64,000 bases of DNA from Streptomyces sp. NBC_01314 (lineage in GTDB: Bacteria; Actinomycetota; Actinomycetes; Streptomycetales; Streptomycetaceae). The stretch is from positions 4,092,001 to 4,156,000 of the forward strand of contig NZ_CP108394.1 of assembly GCF_041435215.1 (NCBI RefSeq), in the 5' to 3' direction. Shown piece after piece: positions 49,295-59,287 of the stretch (positions are counted from its first letter, which is position 1; each line of letters opens with the position of its first letter). A program made the translations under genes and the position numbers. The notes below the pieces were generated by a model. It worked only from the letters and a program-made list of their open reading frames with translations, made no database searches and was not told the origin of the DNA.

Positions 49295-51642
49295 GCTCCC
49301 CCGTCGTGCGCCAGTGGTACCGGGACCTCGCGATGGGGGTCCGGTTCACCTTCACCGGGGGCCGTGAGGGCTGGGTGCGCGCCCTGCTCACCGCGGTCGG
49401 CGTCGGTCTCGGGGTCGCGCTGCTGCTGCTCACCGCGGCCATACCGAACGCGTTGGCGACGCGGGGCGCCCGGGAGGAGGCCCGGCAGGACCGGGGGATC
49501 GGCTACCTGGAGGACAACAGCAGGTCCAAGCCGACCGACAGGAGCCTGCTCGTCGCCGACACCGACACCGAGTACCGGCACCAGGAGATAAGGGGAAAGC
49601 TCCTCGAACCCGAGGGCGTGGACGCGCCGCCGCCGCCGGGGCTGGGGAAGTTCCCCGCGCCGGGCGAGATGGTCGTCTCCCCCGCCCTCGCCGAACTGCT
49701 GAAGTCGGACGCCGGGGAACTCCTGCGCGGCCGGCTGCCGTACAAGACGGTGGGCACCATCGGCGAGACCGGGCTGATCGGCCCGGGGGAACTCGCCTAC
49801 TACGCCGGCGCCGACGGACTCGCCCAGCGGCTCGACGGCTCGGTGGTGGCCCGGATCGACCGGTTCGGGGCGGGCGAGCAGCCCGCGGAGGAGATGGACC
49901 CGATCCTGCTCCTGCTCACGCTGGTCGTCTTCGTGGTGCTGCTGATGCCGGTCGCCGTCTTCATCGCCACGGCCGTACGGTTCGGCGGCGAGCGGCGCGA
50001 CCGGAGGCTGGCGGCGCTGCGGCTGGTCGGCTCCGACGGACGGATGACACGCCGGATCGCGGCGGGCGAGGCCCTCGCGGGCGCCGTGCTGGGGCTGCTC
50101 TTCGGCACCGGGTTCTTCCTGCTCGGCCGGGAGGTCGCCGGTTCGGTCGAGGTGCTCGACGTCAGTGTGTTCCCGAGCTACCTCGACCCCTCCCCCGGCC
50201 TCGCCCTGCTGGTGGCGCTCGCGGTGCCGGCGGCCGCCGTCCTCGTCACCCTGTTCGCGCTGCGTGGCGTCGTCATCGAACCGCTCGGCGTGGTCCGTAC
50301 GGCCAAGCCCGCGCGGCGCAGGCTCTGGTGGCGGCTGCTGCTGCCGCTCGGCGGTCTCGCCCTGCTCTACCCGATGGTCGGCCAGGGGTCGGAGAACGGG
50401 GAGTTCAACGAGTACATGGTGACCGGCGGTGTCGTCCTGCTGCTCGTCGGCATCACCGCGCTGCTGCCGTGGGTCGTCGAGGCGTTCGTCGCCCGGCTGG
50501 GCTCCGGCGCCGTCTCCTGGCAACTTGCCGTCCGCAGGCTCCAGTTGAGCAGTGGCTCGGCGGCCCGCATGGTCAACGGCATCGCGGTGGCGGTGGCCGG
50601 CGCGATCGCCCTGCAGATGCTGTTCGCCGGGGTCGAGAACAGGTTCACCGAGACGACCGGCAAGGACACCACGCGGGCCCAGATGGAGCTGACCCTGCCG
50701 GACGACCTCTCGGTGAGCGTCGCAGGCAAGGAACTGAAGGGGCCCAAGGGCGCGGAGGCCACCGCGGTGCTGTCCGCCACAGAGGTATCCGCCACCGCCA
50801 AGGACCCCGAGGAGTGGGCGGCGGTGACCGTCGGAGACTGCGCCGCGCTGCGCGAACTCGCCAAGATCTCCGCGTGCCGCGACGGCGACGTCTTCGTACT
50901 GGGTGACCGGAGGGACCCGACCGCGACGAAGCTCGCCGCCGCCGGGAACACGGTGTACTTCGGCGCGTCCTACAGCGGAGAAGAGCCGGGCGCCGAGCTC
51001 GCCTGGAAGCTGCCGGACGAGTTGACGAAGGTGTCCGAACGCGCCGACACGCTGCGGCCCGGGACGGCGGGGATGCTGGCCACTCCGGGCGCCCTGCCCG
51101 CCAAGGCGGAGGCCGGGTTCTCCAGCAGCATCTACGTACGGACCGATCCCCGGGTTCCGGACGCGCTCGACGAGGTGCGCAACGCCGCCGTGGCGGTCGA
51201 TCCGCTCATCAGGACCTGGGAGTGGACGTCGACCAGGCGGGTGGACCAGTTCGCGGACATCCGCACCGGTCTGCTGGTCGGCGCCTCCGCCGTGCTCGTC
51301 CTCATCGGCGCGAGCCTTCTCGTCTCCCAGCTGGAGCAGCTCCGCGAACGCAGGAAGCTGCTGTCGGCACTGGTCGCCTTCGGCACCCGGCGCCGCACGC
51401 TCGGCCTGTCCGTGCTGTGGCAGACGGCGATCCCGATCACGCTGGGCCTCGTCCTCGCGTCGACGGTCGGACTGACCCTGGGGGCGGTCCTGCTGAAGAT
51501 GACGGGCTTCCCGGTGGCCGTGGACTGGCCGAGCGTGCTGTCGATGACGGGCATCGGCGCGGGCATCGTCGTCCTGGTCACGATGCTGAGCATGCCGCCG
51601 CTGGTGCGGCTGATGCGGCCGGAGGGGCTGCGTACGGAGTAG
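49291..51642 (+). CDS. FtsX-family ABC permease
   Basis: Permease of 783 aa with two FtsX-like modules. First helix at about 30-50, a large extracytoplasmic region (about 55-200), helices near 205-225, 255-280 and 305-330, then 345-365 and 375-395, a middle helix near 435, a second extracytoplasmic domain (about 460-650), and a final set of three helices (about 670-770). The architecture suggests export or a mechanotransducing role as in antibiotic-resistance BceB/MacB systems. Substrate unknown. Confidence 0.85.
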
Positions 51643-51715
51643 GCCGGTGCCGCGGCGGCCCCGCGGCACCGCCACACTGGACCCCGTCAACCGCTCACCC
51701 GGGAGTGAGGACGCC

Positions 51716-52249
51716 ATGTCGCTCGACAGCTTGAGGTCCGCCATTCCGGACTATGCCAAGGATCTCCGCCGGAATCTGGAGTTCGTCCTCGGCGACTCGA
51801 AGCTGTCGGCGCAGCAGTTGTGGGGCACCGTGCTGGCCACGGCGATCGCCTCGCGTTCGGCGATCGTGCTGCGCGAGCTGGCGCCGGAGGCCAGGGCGAA
51901 CCTGTCGCCGGAGGCGTACGGCGCGGCGCGGTCCGCGGCCGCGGTCATGGCGATGACCAACGTCTTCCACCGGACGCGGCATCTGCTGTCCGACCCCGAG
52001 TACGGCCGTCTGCGGGCGGGTCTGCGGATGAACGTCCTCGGAGATCCCGGGGTCGACAAGGTCGACTTCGAGCTGTGGTCGTTGGCCGTGTCCGCGATCA
52101 ATGCGTGCGGCTTGTGTCTGGACTCCCACGAGCAGGCGCTCCGCAGGGCGGGGGTCGGGCGGGAGACCGTGCAGGAGGCGTTCCGGATCGCGTCGGTGAT
52201 TCAGGCGGTGGGGGTCACGTTGGAGGCGGAGGCGATTCTCTCCGAGTAG
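51716..52249 (+). CDS. ahpD: Alkyl hydroperoxide reductase AhpD
   Basis: CMD-family reductase of 177 aa, exactly the usual AhpD length. Cys131, Cys134, Glu119 and His138 ([11 protein letters not shown]) match the catalytic set of M. tuberculosis AhpD. It normally recycles AhpC using lipoylated SucB. No ahpC or oxyR lies upstream; the preceding gene is the FtsX permease, 73 nt away. ATG at 51716 has GGGAGTGAGG upstream. Confidence 0.92.
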
Positions 52250-52313
52250 GCCTTGCGGGCGATGGCCTGGAATCGCCGGGGAGCTCGGGAGGGTGGGGCC
52301 GCGGGGCGGCCTC

Positions 52314-52374
52314 GGGTCGGTTGTGGGTCGATTGTGGGTCGGTTGTGGCTGATCGCGCGGTTCCCGCGTCCCTG
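52314..52374. repeat. Tandem 11-mers plus dispersed repeat, copy F
   Basis: Three tandem copies of GGGTCGGTTGT (52314-52346, one base changed in the middle copy) run into copy F of the GC-rich repeat (52345-52374: TGGCTGATCGCGCGGTTCCC then a degenerate CGCGTCCCT). Confidence 0.7.
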
Positions 52375-52456
52375 AAGGACAGGGACGTCGCCCCTCGCTC
52401 GCGGGGCCCGGAAAATCAGTCGCGGCCCCATCTCCCACTGGGGAAAATCCATCCCC

Positions 52457-53236
52457 ATGACCTCCCTCTCCTCCCCCACCTTCGAAGACCTCGTCGCCGA
52501 AGGCGATGCCGTGCCCACCGACGGGTGGGACTTCTCGTGGTTCGAGGGGCGGGCCACGGAGGCCCGGCCGTCGTGGGGGTACGCCCGGGCGATGGGTGAG
52601 CGGCTGGGGCGGGCCTCGGCGGCGTTGGACATCCAGACCGGGGGCGGTGAGGTACTCGACTCCGCTCCGCGCTTTCCGCCGGTGACCGTGGCCACGGAAG
52701 GGTGGCCGCCGAACGTCGCCAAGGCCACCACGCTGCTGCACCCCCGGGGCGCGGTGGTGGTGGCCAATGCCGAGGACGCGCCGCTGCCGTTCGCGGACGG
52801 GGCGTTCGACCTGGTCACCAGCAGGCATCCGGTGAGCCCGCACTGGACGGAGATCGCCCGGGTACTCAGGCCCGGTGGCACGTACTTCGCGCAGCATGTG
52901 GGGCCGAGCAGCGTCTTCGAGCTGGTCGAGCACTTCACCGGGCCGCTGCCTGAGGAGACCCGCCGCGGCCGCCACCCGGACGGCGAGCGCGCCGACGCCG
53001 AGGCTGCCGGGCTGGAGATCGTGGACCTGCGGGCCGAGCGGCTGCGGATGGAGTTCCACGACATCGGCGCGGTCGTGCACTTCCTGAAGAAGGTCGTCTG
53101 GATGGTGCCCGGCTTCACCGTCGAGGCGTATCTCCCGCAGCTCCGCTCCCTGCACGAGCGGATCGAGAGCGAGGGCCCCTTCGTCGCGCACAGCGCCCGC
53201 CAGCTCTTCGAGGCCCGCAAGCCGGCAGCCGTGTGA
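52457..53236 (+). CDS. Class I SAM-dependent methyltransferase
   Basis: Methyltransferase of 259 aa. SAM-binding motif I is LDIQTGGGEVLD (about 57-68), followed by NVAKATTLLHPRGAVVVANA, the acidic loop EDAPLPFADGAFDLVTSRH and RVLRPGGTYFAQHVG (motif III). Substrate unknown. An inverted repeat TGGGGA/TCCCCA (52439-52457) overlaps the start codon. No clear ribosome site. Confidence 0.8.
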   Translation: MTSLSSPTFEDLVAEGDAVPTDGWDFSWFEGRATEARPSWGYARAMGERLGRASAALDIQTGGGEVLDSAPRFPPVTVATEGWPPNVAKATTLLHPRGAVVVANAEDAPLPFADGAFDLVTSRHPVSPHWTEIARVLRPGGTYFAQHVGPSSVFELVEHFTGPLPEETRRGRHPDGERADAEAAGLEIVDLRAERLRMEFHDIGAVVHFLKKVVWMVPGFTVEAYLPQLRSLHERIESEGPFVAHSARQLFEARKPAAV

Positions 53237-53849
53237 GGCACGCCTCATGCGGGCGGGCCGACCGTGACCTTCCCGATCGCCAACCCGGCTCGCGCCTGAA
53301 GCGCTCCGCCCACCCGCTCCCCCTGTTCCCCCCAACCCCCGCTCCTGCCGCGCGTTCTGCCGCCCGAGCGGCTCCACCGTGACGGTCGTACGCCGCCCCG
53401 GGAACAGCCGCTCTCCTGCGGCTCCACTCGCGCGCTCCCAGGTGACCGACCTGACCCTCGCGGGCTATACGGGGCGGCAGGGGCTGCACGGGCTGCCCAG
53501 CGGTGTCCACATCGTTATCGCCCACGGCTTGGTTTCTGCGGGTCTACTCGCGTAGGTTCAGACCAAGGCAGTTCGCGCGAGCAAATCTGCGCAGTACGGC
53601 ATCGTGCAGTGGAGGGGGCTGCGCGAAGCCGTGCGCCCCACCACCGGCGTCAAGCGCGCGTTCCACCCGCGCTTCACCCGTACGAGGGCGTCGGGCCGCT
53701 TCTCCTCGGAAGTCGCACAACGACGCGCAAACCCCACATTCCCGCCGGGATTCCCCCTTTCCCCCTTCGAATTCGCCGGGATTCGGCCATGATCACCCCT
53801 CGATCGCACCCTGAATGAGCGCTTCCACACTCACCGCCACGCTGTCGTT

Positions 53850-53965
53850 CGACTCCGGAGAGTAGTTGTGGCACGCCGATGCACGCAGCATCACTCACGA
53901 AGGGTTATGGTGGAAACCCCCCCTCGGGCCGGTCCGTCTCCCCCCCACGGACCGGCCCGTTTTTT
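53850..53965 (+). ncRNA. Candidate small RNA or attenuated leader, C7-loop terminator
   Basis: The 3' end is a perfect terminator whose loop is a run of seven C. A second C7 run (53917-53923) lies just upstream, after a GGGTT/AACCC pairing (53903-53920). Two C-runs with a 3' C-loop terminator recall the actinobacterial 6C RNA, but I cannot fold a clear first C-loop hairpin. The 5' end is a guess; no promoter with normal spacing was found. Confidence 0.35.
53925..53965 (+). terminator. Intrinsic terminator, 13-bp stem and U6
   Basis: CGGGCCGGTCCGT (53925-53937) and ACGGACCGGCCCG (53947-53959) pair perfectly around a C-rich loop and are followed by six T. It is the most canonical intrinsic terminator of the window and is not near the end of any gene on this strand (closest stop 53236). 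Confidence 0.85.
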
Positions 53966-54110
53966 CTGCCCGGAAGTCGGCCCTCCGGGTGGCCGCTCCC
54001 TCGGCCCCGGGCCCGCCCCAACCCCGCACACCCCTTGGCGGAGTTGGCCTCCAGCCCCGGTAGGCTCTGCCAACCAAGGGGACGCCACCGCACCGGAGGG
54101 GCTGGAACAC

Positions 54111-54884
54111 GTGAACCTGCGCGACACACTGCGCGGCCTGTTGGTCAGGGTCTACACACGCAGGGTCGAGGGCCACCTCGACCACGCCCAGGTGCCCGAG
54201 CACATCGGTGTGATCGTGGACGGCAGTCGACGCTGGGCGAAGGCGGCGGGCTCCACCACGATGCAGGGCCACCAGGCCGGCGCCCACAAGATCGAGGAAT
54301 TCCTCGGCTGGTGCACCGAGACGGACGTCAAGGTCGTCACGCTCTGGCTGCTCTCCACCGACAACTTCGGCCGGCCGAAGGAAGAGCTCGTTCCGCTCCT
54401 CGGGATCATCGAGGACACCGTCCGCTCCCTCGCCGCCGACGGCCGCTGGCGTGTGCACCATGTCGGGGCGCTGGATCTGCTGTCCCCCGGGATGCAGCGC
54501 GCGCTCAAGGAGGCCGAGGAGTCCACGTCGGACGTCGACGGGATACTGGTCAACGTCGCCATCGGGTACGGCGGACGGCAGGAGATCGCCGACGCGGTGC
54601 GCTCGATGCTCCTGGAGGCGCAGGACAAGGGCACCTCGATGGAGGAACTCGCCGAGTCCGTCGACATCGACATGATCGGCCGGCATCTCTACACCGTCGA
54701 CCAGCCCGACCCGGATCTGGTGATCCGTACGAGCGGCGAGCAGCGGCTGTCCGGATTCATGCTCTGGCAGACCGCGCACTCCGAGTACTACTTCTGCGAC
54801 GTCTTCTGGCCGGCCTTCCGGAAGGTGGACTTCCTGCGCGCCCTGCGCGACTACGCGGTGCGAGGCCGACGTTACGGAGGCTGA
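54111..54884 (+). CDS. Cis-prenyl diphosphate synthase (Z-FPP synthase-like)
   Basis: UPP-synthase family protein of 257 aa, closest in pattern to the short-chain Z-farnesyl diphosphate synthase of mycobacteria (recalled). Motifs: HIGVIVDGSRRWAKAAG, TLWLLSTDNFGRP, VNVAIGYGGRQEI, PDPDLVIRTSGEQRLSGF and WPAFRKVDFLRAL. The usual DGNxRW Asn is Ser here. GTG at 54111 has GGAGGGG 9 nt upstream. The same frame is open back to 53868, but that would cross the terminator. Supplies precursors for polyprenyl carriers. Confidence 0.88.
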   Translation: MNLRDTLRGLLVRVYTRRVEGHLDHAQVPEHIGVIVDGSRRWAKAAGSTTMQGHQAGAHKIEEFLGWCTETDVKVVTLWLLSTDNFGRPKEELVPLLGIIEDTVRSLAADGRWRVHHVGALDLLSPGMQRALKEAEESTSDVDGILVNVAIGYGGRQEIADAVRSMLLEAQDKGTSMEELAESVDIDMIGRHLYTVDQPDPDLVIRTSGEQRLSGFMLWQTAHSEYYFCDVFWPAFRKVDFLRALRDYAVRGRRYGG

Positions 54885-55210
54885 GACTCCGTATTGCTGG
54901 TGAGGGGCGCACTGGCCCCATCGGGACAGAAGTAACGAGGAGTTCACCGGGACGCCGTCGTACCGCTTGGCATGGCGGCGCATGTTCGAGGGCATAAGCC
55001 AGTCAGGTCGACACCCGAACCACGGGTGTCGGATCTCAGCGGGCGGCTCGGGGCCGTCCGCCCGGGAGGCCCTTTGCACCAGCCCGATCGTGCGGTCACA
55101 GCACGGACGAAGCAGCGGAGGGCCGGTCACCGGCCCGTGCAACGGCGCCGACGACCGGCCCAGTTCGAACCCGTCGCTCCCCGACCTCATCCGAGGGGGT
55201 ACGTCCTTCC
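54885..55210. other. Hairpin-rich leader of the PhoH gene
   Basis: No gene seen in 326 bases. Three hairpins: GACACCCG/CGGGTGTC (55010-55030), GGGCGG/CCGCCC (55041-55063), and GGGCCGG/CCGGCCC (55120-55136). A transcribed, folded 5' leader for the PhoH gene is likely. Confidence 0.5.
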
Positions 55211-56536
55211 GTGGTGACCAGCACAAAGCGCCGTATGCCAGACCGGCGCACCTACGTCCTCGACACCAGCGTCCTGCTGGCCGACCCGAATGCTTTGATC
55301 CGCTTCGACGAGCACGAAGTCGTGCTGCCGATCGTCGTGGTGACGGAGCTGGAGGCGAAGAGGCACCATCCCGAACTCGGCTACTTCGCCCGGCAGGCCC
55401 TGCGCCTGCTCGACGAGTTCCGGGTCCGGCACGGCCGCCTCGACGCCCCCATCCCGATCGGGGAACTCGGCGGGACCGTGAGGGTCGAGCTCAATCACTC
55501 GGATCCCAGCGTGCTTCCGAGCGGCTACCGCCTGGGGGACAACGACTCCCGCATCCTCGCGGTGGCCCGCAATCTGCAGGCCGAGGGCTTCGACGTCACG
55601 GTGGTGTCGAAGGACCTCCCGCTCAGGATCAAGGCGTCGTCCGTGGGTCTCCTCGCCGAGGAGTACCGCGCGGAGCTCGCCATCACGGGCGCCTCCGGGT
55701 GGACCGGGATGTCCGAGCTGACCCTGCCCGGCGAACAGGTCGACATCCTCTTCGAGGAAGGGACGATCTACGTTCCCGAGGCGAGCACGATGCCCGTGCA
55801 CACCGGCCTGACGATCACGTCGGAGCGCGGCAAGGCACTGGGCCGGGTGACGCCCGACGGCAACATCCGGCTTGTGCGGGGAGACCGGGAGGCATTCGGC
55901 ATCAAGGGCCGCAGCGCGGAGCAGCGCATCGCGCTGGATCTGCTGCTCGACCCGGACGTGGGCATCCTGTCGATGGGCGGCCGGGCCGGCACCGGCAAGT
56001 CGGCGCTCGCGCTGTGCGCGGGCCTGGAGGCCGTGCTCGAACGGCGACAGCACAAGAAGGTGATGGTCTTCCGGCCGCTGTACGCGGTGGGCGGGCAGGA
56101 GCTCGGCTATCTGCCCGGCTCCGAGTCCGAGAAGATGGGCCCCTGGGCGCAGGCGGTCTTCGACACGCTCTCCGCGGTCACCAGCCGCGAGGTCATCGAG
56201 GAGATCACCGCACGCGGGATGCTGGAGGTCCTGCCGCTCACGCACATCCGTGGCCGTTCCCTGCACGACGCCTTCGTGATCGTGGACGAGGCGCAGTCGC
56301 TGGAGCGGAACGTCCTGCTGACCGTTCTGTCCCGGATCGGGTCGAATTCCCGTGTCGTCCTGACCCATGACGTGGCCCAGCGCGACAATCTGCGCGTCGG
56401 TCGCTACGACGGTGTCGTCGCCGTGGTCGAGAAGCTGAAGGGCCATCCGCTCTTCGCCCACGTCACGTTGACGAGGTCCGAACGGTCCCAGATCGCGGCC
56501 CTGGTGACCGAAATGCTGGAGGACGGACAGATCTGA
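55211..56536 (+). CDS. PIN-PhoH family ATPase/ribonuclease
   Basis: Protein of 441 aa. N-terminal PIN nuclease domain (about 12-150: [39 protein letters not shown]), then PhoH NTPase (about 225-435: [32 protein letters not shown]). Such PhoH2-like proteins are ATP-driven RNA-unwinding ribonucleases in mycobacteria (recalled). GTG at 55211 has GAGGGGGTA upstream; its 5' leader is hairpin-rich. Confidence 0.9.
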
Positions 56537-57002
56537 CGGGACCCGGCCGGTCTCGACCGGTCTCGGCCGGTCTCAACCGGTTTGGTCAACTTCGGTCGGC
56601 CACCGATCCCTTGGATCCCATGGGCGCCGTCCGGCAAAGGCGATGAGCCTAGCCGGGCGGCGCCTTGGCGTGTGTGGCTTTCCTTGCATCTCCTGCCTCA
56701 AACGAGGTGTGAGCTTTCACACTCACCACTGGATTGCCTCACGGTGTCGGGTTACGGCAGAGTCTCACTCCTGTCAGACCCCGCATACGACACACCTGTA
56801 CCCCCAGCGGTACGGAACCACAGCGACACCAGGTCAACTCCATAGCTTCGTCGTATGCCGCCCGAGCATCTCGTGGCACTCCTCGCAAGGGAGTTGCCCA
56901 CCGGGCCCGTGCCTCCGTGACCCCGCAGTTGGGAGGCCAGCGTCAGGGGCACGATTGCGTCCGCCAGGGTCACCGAGGCGGGCGATGCTGGAAGGAAACC
57001 GT
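56537..57002. other. Leader region of the SLT-like gene
   Basis: No gene seen in 466 bases. After three 10-base repeats (56551-56580), two hairpins stand near the gene: GGCACTCC/GGAGTTGCC (56875-56898) and GCCTCC/GGAGGC (56911-56937). I looked for c-di-AMP riboswitch hallmarks, common before such genes in Streptomyces, and did not find them. Confidence 0.5.
56547..56580. repeat. Three tandem TCTCRRCCGG units
   Basis: Tandem 10-base units TCTCGACCGG, TCTCGGCCGG, TCTCAACCGG after CCGG, starting 11 nt past the PhoH stop. Confidence 0.75.
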
Positions 57003-57710
57003 GTGAGCCGGATTTCGGTCCGGGGATTCGCAGTGGCTTCGGCCACCGCGGTCACCGCAGTCGGCAGTGTCGTCGGAGTTGCCTCTGGCAGCACCGCCCA
57101 GACGACCATTGACGACGCCGAGGCCGTCGCGAACGACACCACGTTGCTCGCCGACATACCCGTGGGCCAGCAGGCCCAGGTGCAGACCGCGTCCCTGACT
57201 GCTCAGGCCGACGCCCAGGCCATCGCTGCCGACGCGAGCGCCCGCAAGGGTGCCGAGGAGACCGCCCGTAAGAAGGCGGCCCGCGACGCGATCGACAAGC
57301 AGAAGGCCGCGGAGAAGGCCGAGCAGGAGCGCAAGGCGAAGGAAGCGGCGCAGGCCGAGGCCGAGTCGAAGTCCGAGGCCGCCGGCTCGCTCGGTGACAT
57401 CCCCACGCAGAGCTCGTACACCGTCGCCGAGATCCAGGCGATGGCGAAGGCGGTCGTGGCAAGCGACCAGTGGACGTGCTTCAGCAACATCGTGAACCAC
57501 GAGTCCACCTGGAACTATCAGGCCGTCAACCCGTCTTCGGGTGCCTACGGTCTCTTCCAGGCGCTGCCCGCCGGCAAGTACTCCTCCGCCGGTTCCGACT
57601 GGCGGACCAACCCGGCCACGCAGATCAAGTGGGGCCTCAACTACATGGACTCGCGCTACGGCAGCCCGTGTGAGGCCTGGTCGTTCTGGCAGGCCAACCA
57701 CTGGTACTAG
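57003..57710 (+). CDS. Secreted lysozyme/transglycosylase-like protein
   Basis: Secreted protein of 235 aa. Signal peptide about 1-36 (GFAVASATAVTAVGSVVGVA), a long Ala/Lys/Glu coiled coil (about 75-130), and a C-terminal lytic-transglycosylase-like domain (about 145-235) with the catalytic Glu in NHESTWNYQAVNPSSGAYGL and the terminal SFWQANHWY. It would cut or remodel peptidoglycan outside the cell. GTG at 57003 has GGAAGGA 6 nt upstream; longer frames include no signal-peptide logic. Confidence 0.85.
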   Translation: MSRISVRGFAVASATAVTAVGSVVGVASGSTAQTTIDDAEAVANDTTLLADIPVGQQAQVQTASLTAQADAQAIAADASARKGAEETARKKAARDAIDKQKAAEKAEQERKAKEAAQAEAESKSEAAGSLGDIPTQSSYTVAEIQAMAKAVVASDQWTCFSNIVNHESTWNYQAVNPSSGAYGLFQALPAGKYSSAGSDWRTNPATQIKWGLNYMDSRYGSPCEAWSFWQANHWY

Positions 57711-57871
57711 GCCGGTAGGCCGTAGAGGCCGACCGTCCGCCGCTCAACCTTCCGCAGCCCTCCACCGTCCTTTGGTGGGGGGCCGCGGCCATGTACGGTC
57801 GAAGTCACCGAGAGGAATGGAGTCCTCCGGGAGGAGTGATGACCAGCAGAGGTGACGGGGGAAGAGAGCGG

Positions 57872-59287
57872 ATGATGTCGCGAGTTCCCGGATGGCTCGG
57901 CCGGGTCGGCGCCGGGCTGAGCGGGTGGGGCGAACGGCTGGAACGGCGCCGGGCCGAGATCGAGTCGGAGGCGGCGAGTCCGGACGACGGCAGGGATGCC
58001 GCGGCGGGACGCCGGCGCGACAGTGACGCGGACGGCCCCGGCTTCGGCTCCGGCTCCGGCTCCGGGGACTTCGAGGGGGCTACCGGCGTCGGAGTCGCGA
58101 AGGAGGCCGGGAGCGGGGTCGGGGGCGGGGGCGGGGGCGTCGAAAGCGGTGCGGATGATGCTCCGGACTCCCCCGCCGGTGCTCGGGGCCGGACGGCCAC
58201 CCCGGTTCTCCATACCCGCCCCGACCCCGCGTCGGCGGTGCCCTGGGGCATGCGGGTGGCGGCCGAGGCCGGATGGCGGCTGCTCGTGCTCGCGGGCACC
58301 GTCTGGGTGTTGATGCGGGTCATCAGCTCCGTACAACTGCTGGTGCTGTCGTTCACCGCCGCGCTTCTCATCACCGCCCTGCTCCAGCCGGCCGTGGCAC
58401 TGCTGACCCGGCACGGCGTACCGCGCGGCCTCGCCACCGCGCTGACCGCCGTCCTCGGCTTCGTCGTCATGGGGCTGATCGGCTGGTTCGTCACCTGGCA
58501 GGTCATGGAGAACATCGACGACCTCTCCGACCAGATCCAGGACGGCGTCGACGAGTTGCAACGCTGGCTGCTCGACAGCCCGTTCCACGTCACCGAGAAC
58601 CAGATCAACGACATCGCCAAGAACCTCCGCGAGGCCATCAGCGACAACACGGACACGATCACCTCGGCGGGTCTGGAGGGCGTGACGGTCCTCGTCGAGG
58701 CGCTCACCGGCATCCTCCTGACGATGTTCTCCACGCTGTTCCTCCTCTACGACGGCAAGCGGATCTGGCAGTGGACCCTCAAGCTGGTGCCGGCGGCGGC
58801 CCGGCCGGGTGTCTCGGCGGCGGGGCCGCGCGCCTGGCAGACGTTGACGGCGTATGTGCGCGGCACGGTGGTGGTGGCACTGATCGACGCGATCTTCATC
58901 GGCCTGGGGATCTACTTCCTGGACGTGCCGATGGCGGTCCCGCTGGCCGTGTTCATCTTCCTGTTCTCCTTCATCCCGCTGGTGGGTGCGGTCGTCTCGG
59001 GCGCGCTGGCGGTGGTCGTGGCGTTGGTGACGCAGGGCGTCTTCACGGCCGTCATGACGCTGGCCGTCGTGCTCGCCGTCCAGCAGATCGAGGGGCACAT
59101 CCTCCAGCCGTTCATCCTCGGGCGGGCCGTACGGGTGCACCCCCTGGCCGTCGTCCTGTCGGTCGCCGCCGGTGGCATGATCGCGGGCATCGGAGGCGCG
59201 GTGGTGGCCGTGCCGTTGGTCGCGGTCACGAACACGGTGGTGGGGTCGTTGCGGGCGTACGCGGACGAGCACGAGCGCGCGGGTTAA
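57872..59287 (+). CDS. AI-2E family transporter
   Basis: Membrane protein of 471 aa. The N-terminal 125 residues are charged and Gly/Asp-rich and vary between strains, followed by about eight helices (first pair VLAGTVWVLMRVISSV and LVLSFTAALLITALL). A soluble loop (NIDDLSDQIQDGVDELQRWL) and the C-terminal QQIEGHILQPFILGRAVRVH match the family. Despite the family name, substrates are mostly unknown. ATG at 57872 (or the next codon) follows GGGGGAAGAG; a second start at 57839 with GGGAGGAG is possible. Confidence 0.85.
   Translation: MMSRVPGWLGRVGAGLSGWGERLERRRAEIESEAASPDDGRDAAAGRRRDSDADGPGFGSGSGSGDFEGATGVGVAKEAGSGVGGGGGGVESGADDAPDSPAGARGRTATPVLHTRPDPASAVPWGMRVAAEAGWRLLVLAGTVWVLMRVISSVQLLVLSFTAALLITALLQPAVALLTRHGVPRGLATALTAVLGFVVMGLIGWFVTWQVMENIDDLSDQIQDGVDELQRWLLDSPFHVTENQINDIAKNLREAISDNTDTITSAGLEGVTVLVEALTGILLTMFSTLFLLYDGKRIWQWTLKLVPAAARPGVSAAGPRAWQTLTAYVRGTVVVALIDAIFIGLGIYFLDVPMAVPLAVFIFLFSFIPLVGAVVSGALAVVVALVTQGVFTAVMTLAVVLAVQQIEGHILQPFILGRAVRVHPLAVVLSVAAGGMIAGIGGAVVAVPLVAVTNTVVGSLRAYADEHERAG

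Follow-up and report, generated by a model that had tools for sequence, protein, structure and literature searches.

A putative gene for a small RNA with an unpaired C-rich tail, conserved in Streptomyces and related genera

The locus

Ahead of the prenyl synthase gene uppS in the window, by which the whole 64,000-nt stretch of Streptomyces sp. NBC_01314 DNA under analysis is meant, lies a perfect 13-bp stem (53925-53937 paired with 53947-53959) with a 9-nt loop, CTCCCCCCC. A run of seven C (53917-53923) precedes the stem and six T (53960-53965) follow it. All these parts, including the C7 run of the loop, are present in the window sequence as the first-pass annotation had described them. Its statement that no plus-strand gene ends within 680 nt upstream also held, the closest plausible gene end being at 53236, 688 nt 5' of the stem. 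Between 53240 and 53850 there are about 600 nt devoid of a convincing gene, and the mechanical ORF list contains a plus-strand frame of 103 aa at 53503-53814. The GTG start codon of uppS (54111) is situated 145 nt beyond the last T of the T6 tract.

The fold of 53850-53970 reaches -52.4 kcal/mol (z-score -2.84; equalled in 2 of 200 shuffles) and that of the predicted RNA of about 49 nt -28.3 kcal/mol. The hairpin is missing from the output of a simple terminator scan, which accepts loops of 3-8 nt. An inverted repeat, GATGC-N5-GCATC (53878-53892), is found just 5' of the predicted promoter; it is partly conserved and possibly a candidate regulator site. The coordinates of the features are compiled in Table 1.

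Table 1. Predicted features of the element (window coordinates)
Feature	Position	Strand	Evidence
Upstream DNA, moderately conserved in Streptomyces, probably regulatory	53850..53901	+	column counts, 130 loci
Putative extended -10 promoter GTTATGGT, with G-14, T-12, A-11 and T-7	53904..53911	+	pattern invariance, 130 + 28 loci
Predicted small RNA of ~49 nt (start 53916-53918, end 53963-53965)	53917..53965	+	conservation, covariation, BLAST match starts
Unpaired 5' tail C7U, which with CGG of the stem would form the seed	53917..53924	+	C-run and U counts
13-bp hairpin with C-rich loop (53938-53946)	53925..53959	+	sequence, folding, covariation, RNAalifold
U tract of predicted intrinsic terminator	53960..53965	+	T counts, 129 Streptomyces loci

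Conservation and phylogenetic range

With 53800-53990 as a query, a match was obtained in 145 of 150 Streptomyces genomes. An alignment was built from 130 of the 145 matching genomes (15 are not included, and 24 named loci also lie outside it). In these 130 loci, positions 53904-53959 are nearly invariant with the exception of 53916, 53938 and 53939; positions 53905 and 53908 are changed in 5-6 of the aligned sequences. Conservation is moderate in the DNA immediately upstream and falls close to background in the outer flanks. The core also occurs in 24 named genome records, every one of them from Streptomyces. This conservation is a stronger argument against chance than the folding z-score. 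A phage or plasmid origin was considered as well and rejected, no match having been found.

The range beyond the genus was explored with a covariance model (R2). In a sample of 101 genomes of the family, 51 reach at least 64 bits, namely 21 Streptomyces and 30 genomes from six of the 16 other genera sampled, and four further genomes contain weak matches of 31-34 bits only. A class-wide search of 394 genomes, run under stricter filters, returned 40 genomes at 73 bits or more, all Streptomyces, and nine other genomes with matches of at most 33.6 bits; some weak matches span the full model.

Weak matches (31.5 bits or less) are present in 15 of 16 match-less genomes (five Streptomyces and 11 from other genera), the best of them being mostly GC-rich hairpins without a C tail. 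One match in genus g4 (29.8 bits) covers the full length of the model and has TAnnnT and a C5 run; it lacks a U tract, none of the four marker genes is nearby, and it was treated as a chance match, which is not proven. A search pattern combining tail and promoter recovered all three positive controls; in 25 genomes in which no copy had been found, it gave a single match (genome G171), which lacks such a hairpin. Among the Streptomyces genomes without a match, contigs end 28, 185 and 233 nt beyond the flanking gene in G001, G129 and G081, and 662 nt upstream of uppS in G014, so that the element may be missing from the assembly only; in G010 the contig extends 386 nt beyond the reductase match and the element is absent. 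In three Streptomyces draft assemblies (L415, L416 and L417) the sequence breaks off near the place where the element is expected, as though the hairpin or the C runs hindered assembly there. On the minus strand of L263 (around position 1505), in a genome of genus g10 without the sRNA, a hairpin of another kind was seen, with a C8 loop and a preceding C9 run; it may represent another C-rich RNA.

Promoter, C-rich tail and U tract

A G at -14 is a trait of extended -10 promoters. All 130 Streptomyces loci and all 28 loci from other genera have the pattern GnTAnnnT ahead of the C run, with middle bases that vary between genera; the sites were located by patterns presupposing the T, A and T, which all loci passed. 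A weak, tail-less locus (L204) was omitted from this count and from the structural alignment A2 described below. Two papers report TANNNT as the Streptomyces -10 element (PMC4895711, PMC8780764). No -35 box was found for the element, and a scan of 50000-58000 for sigma-70 promoters that include a -35 box was empty. In other genera, 25 of 32 rows of BLAST matches start at 53917, where such a promoter would initiate transcription. By the invariance of GnTAnnnT the element appears to have its own promoter, as an intrinsically terminated sRNA gene should.

The 5' C run comprises seven residues in 105 of 129 Streptomyces loci (one locus of the 130, cut by a contig end, was left out of the C-run counts) and in 25 of 28 loci of other genera. 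It is less variable in length than the loop run: within Streptomyces the former ranges from 6 to 9 and the latter from 6 to 10, and the loop run drops to 3-4 in nine of the 28 other loci. The U that closes the tail is kept in all 130 aligned Streptomyces loci. A steadier 5' C run with an invariant U is what would be expected of a seed. The U tract has at least five T in its first six positions in 111 of 129 Streptomyces loci and none in one.

Covariation of the stem

Alignment A2 combines 22 of the 130 Streptomyces loci with 19 of the 28 others, chosen for diversity. Across the 13 pairs and 41 sequences, pairing holds in 99.8% of 533 cells, with one unpaired; the comparison for uncompensated changes that the first-pass annotation had proposed thus came out in favour of the stem. 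Both sides are changed in 38 cells distributed over four pairs, and a control with slid partners gave no double changes. The covariation score of 0.202 (0.101 in shuffles) was reached in none of 500 shuffles, and none matched the percentage paired or the number of doubly changed cells. Two controls were weak or adverse: four doubly changed pairs occurred in 21 of 500 shuffles, and the number of pair types was reached by all 500. Related sequences may beat such shuffles without any structure, and because kinship can inflate the contrast, weight was put on the double changes at four separate in-register pairs.

Eight of the 13 pairs never vary. Within Streptomyces, a G-C pair became A-U at 53936/53948 in L054 and a U-A pair became A-U at 53937/53947 in L130, the pair being kept each time. 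U-G pairs, present in three of the 41 sequences, favour an RNA over a DNA palindrome, and RNAalifold recovers the same helix and no other. A conserved structure with compensatory changes, followed by a U tract, points to an sRNA gene.

Neighbouring genes

In 69 of 130 Streptomyces loci the gene directly downstream encodes an aldo/keto reductase on the minus strand, at a distance of 21-1290 nt (median 83; more than 386 in four), and uppS follows beyond it in 58 of the 69. In 54 of the 130 loci uppS is the next marker gene. Downstream of the element in other genera, a prepilin-peptidase-like gene is found in 22 of 29 loci; in Streptomyces this gene, often present, is upstream where seen. Two of the five loci from other genera examined gene by gene have an intervening minus-strand gene, which we take to be DUF192-like. 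A shared region with changing immediate neighbours is as expected of a self-standing gene.

Candidate target mRNAs

In its own genome, the complement of the tail occurs ahead of start codons 42 times, mildly above the 30 matches of a reversed control. When 30 of the 42 matches were examined with a coding filter, five distinct places passed, one of which is clearly the start of an AraC-type regulator of 409 aa, presumably AdpA. Its leader contains CCGAGGGGGG 9 nt 5' of the ATG. The predicted duplex with the tail has 10 bp and -23.8 kcal/mol; three of these bp compete with the stem and full pairing needs the three stem bp opened. Co-folding of the sRNA with the adpA leader is favoured over the separate RNAs by about 7 kcal/mol.

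A stricter pattern applied to 15 Streptomyces gave 46 matches versus 15 in the control, with the adpA leader among them in 13 of the 15, one per genome (10 confirmed by translation). Leaders were then compared between two sets, 50 of the 51 genomes that match the sRNA strongly and 20 of the remaining 50. In the sRNA-bearing genera, 9-10 nt of the site match in 47 of 50 genomes; in genera without a found sRNA, 9-10 nt match in nine of 20 genomes, 6-8 nt in six, and no site was seen in five, where the stretch may miss the start. Genomes within one genus are not independent in these counts, and by genus the site is kept in seven of seven with the sRNA versus four of seven judgeable ones without. 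A narrower search range had given 42 of 50 and five of 20 with 9-10 nt; the start codon fell outside it in several genomes, and the wider count was used. There are exceptions in both directions: G001, G010 and G014 are Streptomyces in which the site is present and no sRNA was found, and G239 is a Streptomyces with the sRNA and without the site, while two more genomes match 7-8 nt.

These counts suggest that complementarity at the Shine-Dalgarno region of adpA is conserved. The site is also kept in several genera in which no sRNA was detected, so that adpA is put forward as a hypothetical target only, and whether it is a true one appears doubtful, although possible. RNase III is reported to cut the adpA mRNA of Streptomyces coelicolor, in vitro and without added sRNA (PMC2936110), which is compatible with an sRNA-mRNA duplex. 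An antisense RNA to adpA has also been reported (PMC5775266).

The adpA-like gene (L294:274-1503, minus strand; G000:C1:7211500-7212745) has an unusual leader, CCGAGGGGGGCTTAG, before its ATG, which is kept across much of the family, genera without the sRNA included. The other recurrent target match belongs to the gene of a small protein of about 66 aa, where the site is similar but varies. This protein, which starts with MQAAPVR or similar (L400-L405, L409), was seen in 14 of 15 Streptomyces and has no Pfam match; its gene often has a G-rich Shine-Dalgarno region.

Alternative explanations

The first-pass annotation had offered two readings of the hairpin, a small RNA and an attenuator of the prenyl synthase gene. 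The conserved promoter-like site, the compensated stem, the U tract and the changing neighbours speak for the former, and a gene for a small RNA is very probably present. The latter, a terminator or attenuator in the uppS leader, might have been expected from the short distance to uppS in the window and from the 54 loci in which uppS comes next. It calls for a constant leader position, which was not found: the intervening reductase gene and the different neighbourhood in other genera contradict it for most of the genus and leave it most improbable. Hairpin and U tract do have the form of a terminator, and similar-stemmed GC-rich terminators are common, as the weak R2 matches illustrate. A plain terminator, whether for an upstream gene or for the convergent reductase gene, kept by chance or for its usefulness, would however need neither the promoter site nor the C tail that are conserved with it; background hairpins do not exceed 34 bits, compared to at least 64 bits for the element, and the upstream genes are not constant, which makes this a distinctly improbable explanation. 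The chance that the sequence encodes an N-terminal extension of uppS is negligible. The frame from GTG 53868 (338 aa) is open through into uppS, but the family matches are confined to the uppS part, and the two C runs differ in length between loci by single bases (6-9 in the first, 6-10 in the loop), which would shift any frame and contradicts coding.

The RNA, if real, could bind a protein or RNA polymerase and work by titration or sequestration rather than by base pairing, and the extreme invariance, which extends to stem positions free to compensate, would suit such a role. The steadiest unpaired part is nevertheless the C tail with its invariant terminal U, which resembles a seed, and in a RIP-seq study of S. 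coelicolor RNA polymerase the two associated RNAs reported are scr3559 and scr0792 (PMC11077062). Protein binding is accordingly regarded as unlikely, and action through pairing of the C tail as probable.

Proposed mode of action

The preferred reading, with a probability of roughly 0.6, is an autonomous gene for a trans-acting sRNA of about 49 nt in Streptomycetaceae that would pair through its C tail. The sequences themselves show the conservation, the compensated stem, the invariant promoter positions and the changing neighbours; transcription, start site, pairing, repression and target of this RNA are inferred. RNA polymerase would start at the extended -10 promoter and produce the C7U 5' tail, and transcription would halt at the 13-bp hairpin and U tract, so that the RNA would consist largely of its terminator. 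The exposed tail, extended by the CGG that follows in the stem, could pair with G-rich Shine-Dalgarno regions such as that of adpA and block ribosome entry, a pairing that the C-rich loop may assist. The adpA mRNA would be the best candidate target and the sRNA a brake on this master regulator of development and antibiotic production. More specifically, C7UCGG might cover the adpA Shine-Dalgarno sequence and hand the duplex over to RNase III, acting as an unrecognised RNA brake on development and antibiotic onset; this version is rather speculative.

If expressed, the element would be a core Streptomyces sRNA, and its single hairpin and fixed seed would keep it simple enough for testing. Should adpA be a target, the switch to antibiotic production would gain an additional post-transcriptional step, next to the RNase III action on adpA mRNA that has already been reported (PMC2936110).

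Relation to known RNAs

Rfam 15 has no match for the element at model cut-offs. Up to an E-value of 10, the models that overlap the element are Atu_C4 (15.0 bits), Pseudomon-1 (14.3) and SorX (12.1), all far below the cut-offs. An annotation relying on Rfam would therefore miss the element, despite the near-constancy of its core within the genus.

The orthologous locus in S. coelicolor, placed by its neighbours, lies presumably near 5.47 Mb. Parts 1-2 of the five parts of the tables in PMC2422843 contain no entry between 5,400,680 and 5,647,597. In the main texts of the papers searched, as distinct from supplementary lists, there is no name or sequence for the element and no occurrence of scr5022-5031 or scr5036-5041; of five words of its sequence, one occurs, in a single paper on mammalian promoters. 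The transcript may already be contained in the supplementary sRNA lists of PMC3765725, PMC4895711 or PMC8780764. In the first of these, 28.7% of 92 S. coelicolor sRNAs were counted as conserved in three species (PMC3765725). The same study describes scr5583 and scr1434 as conserved, expressed Streptomyces sRNAs with C-rich loops; they are named for other flanking genes (SCO5583 and SCO1434), and by these names would be other loci.

The kinship with 6C RNA (RF01066) suggested by the first-pass annotation stands as a likeness and fails as a membership. Both are actinobacterial and share two exposed C runs, and the 6C RNA of Mycobacterium tuberculosis is said, in work of Mai et al. from 2019, to bind mRNAs via its C-rich loops. 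The search with the Rfam 6C model that had been advised gave no match in 53240-54200 even at E-values up to 10. The sole 6C match in the whole genome is a separate one (C1:5036329-5036404, 49.3 bits, cut-off 47), to which model R2 does not match. In 6C RNA a C-rich loop caps each of the two hairpins (PMC8388888), whereas the element has one hairpin and its first C run forms an unpaired tail, not a loop.

A likeness in the way of working, in another phylum, is offered by RNAIII and other C-rich-tract sRNAs of Firmicutes, in which unpaired C-rich stretches cover Shine-Dalgarno sequences; RsaE is a further member of this group. The element is provisionally filed with this known kind, as a putative trans-acting sRNA with a C-rich seed.
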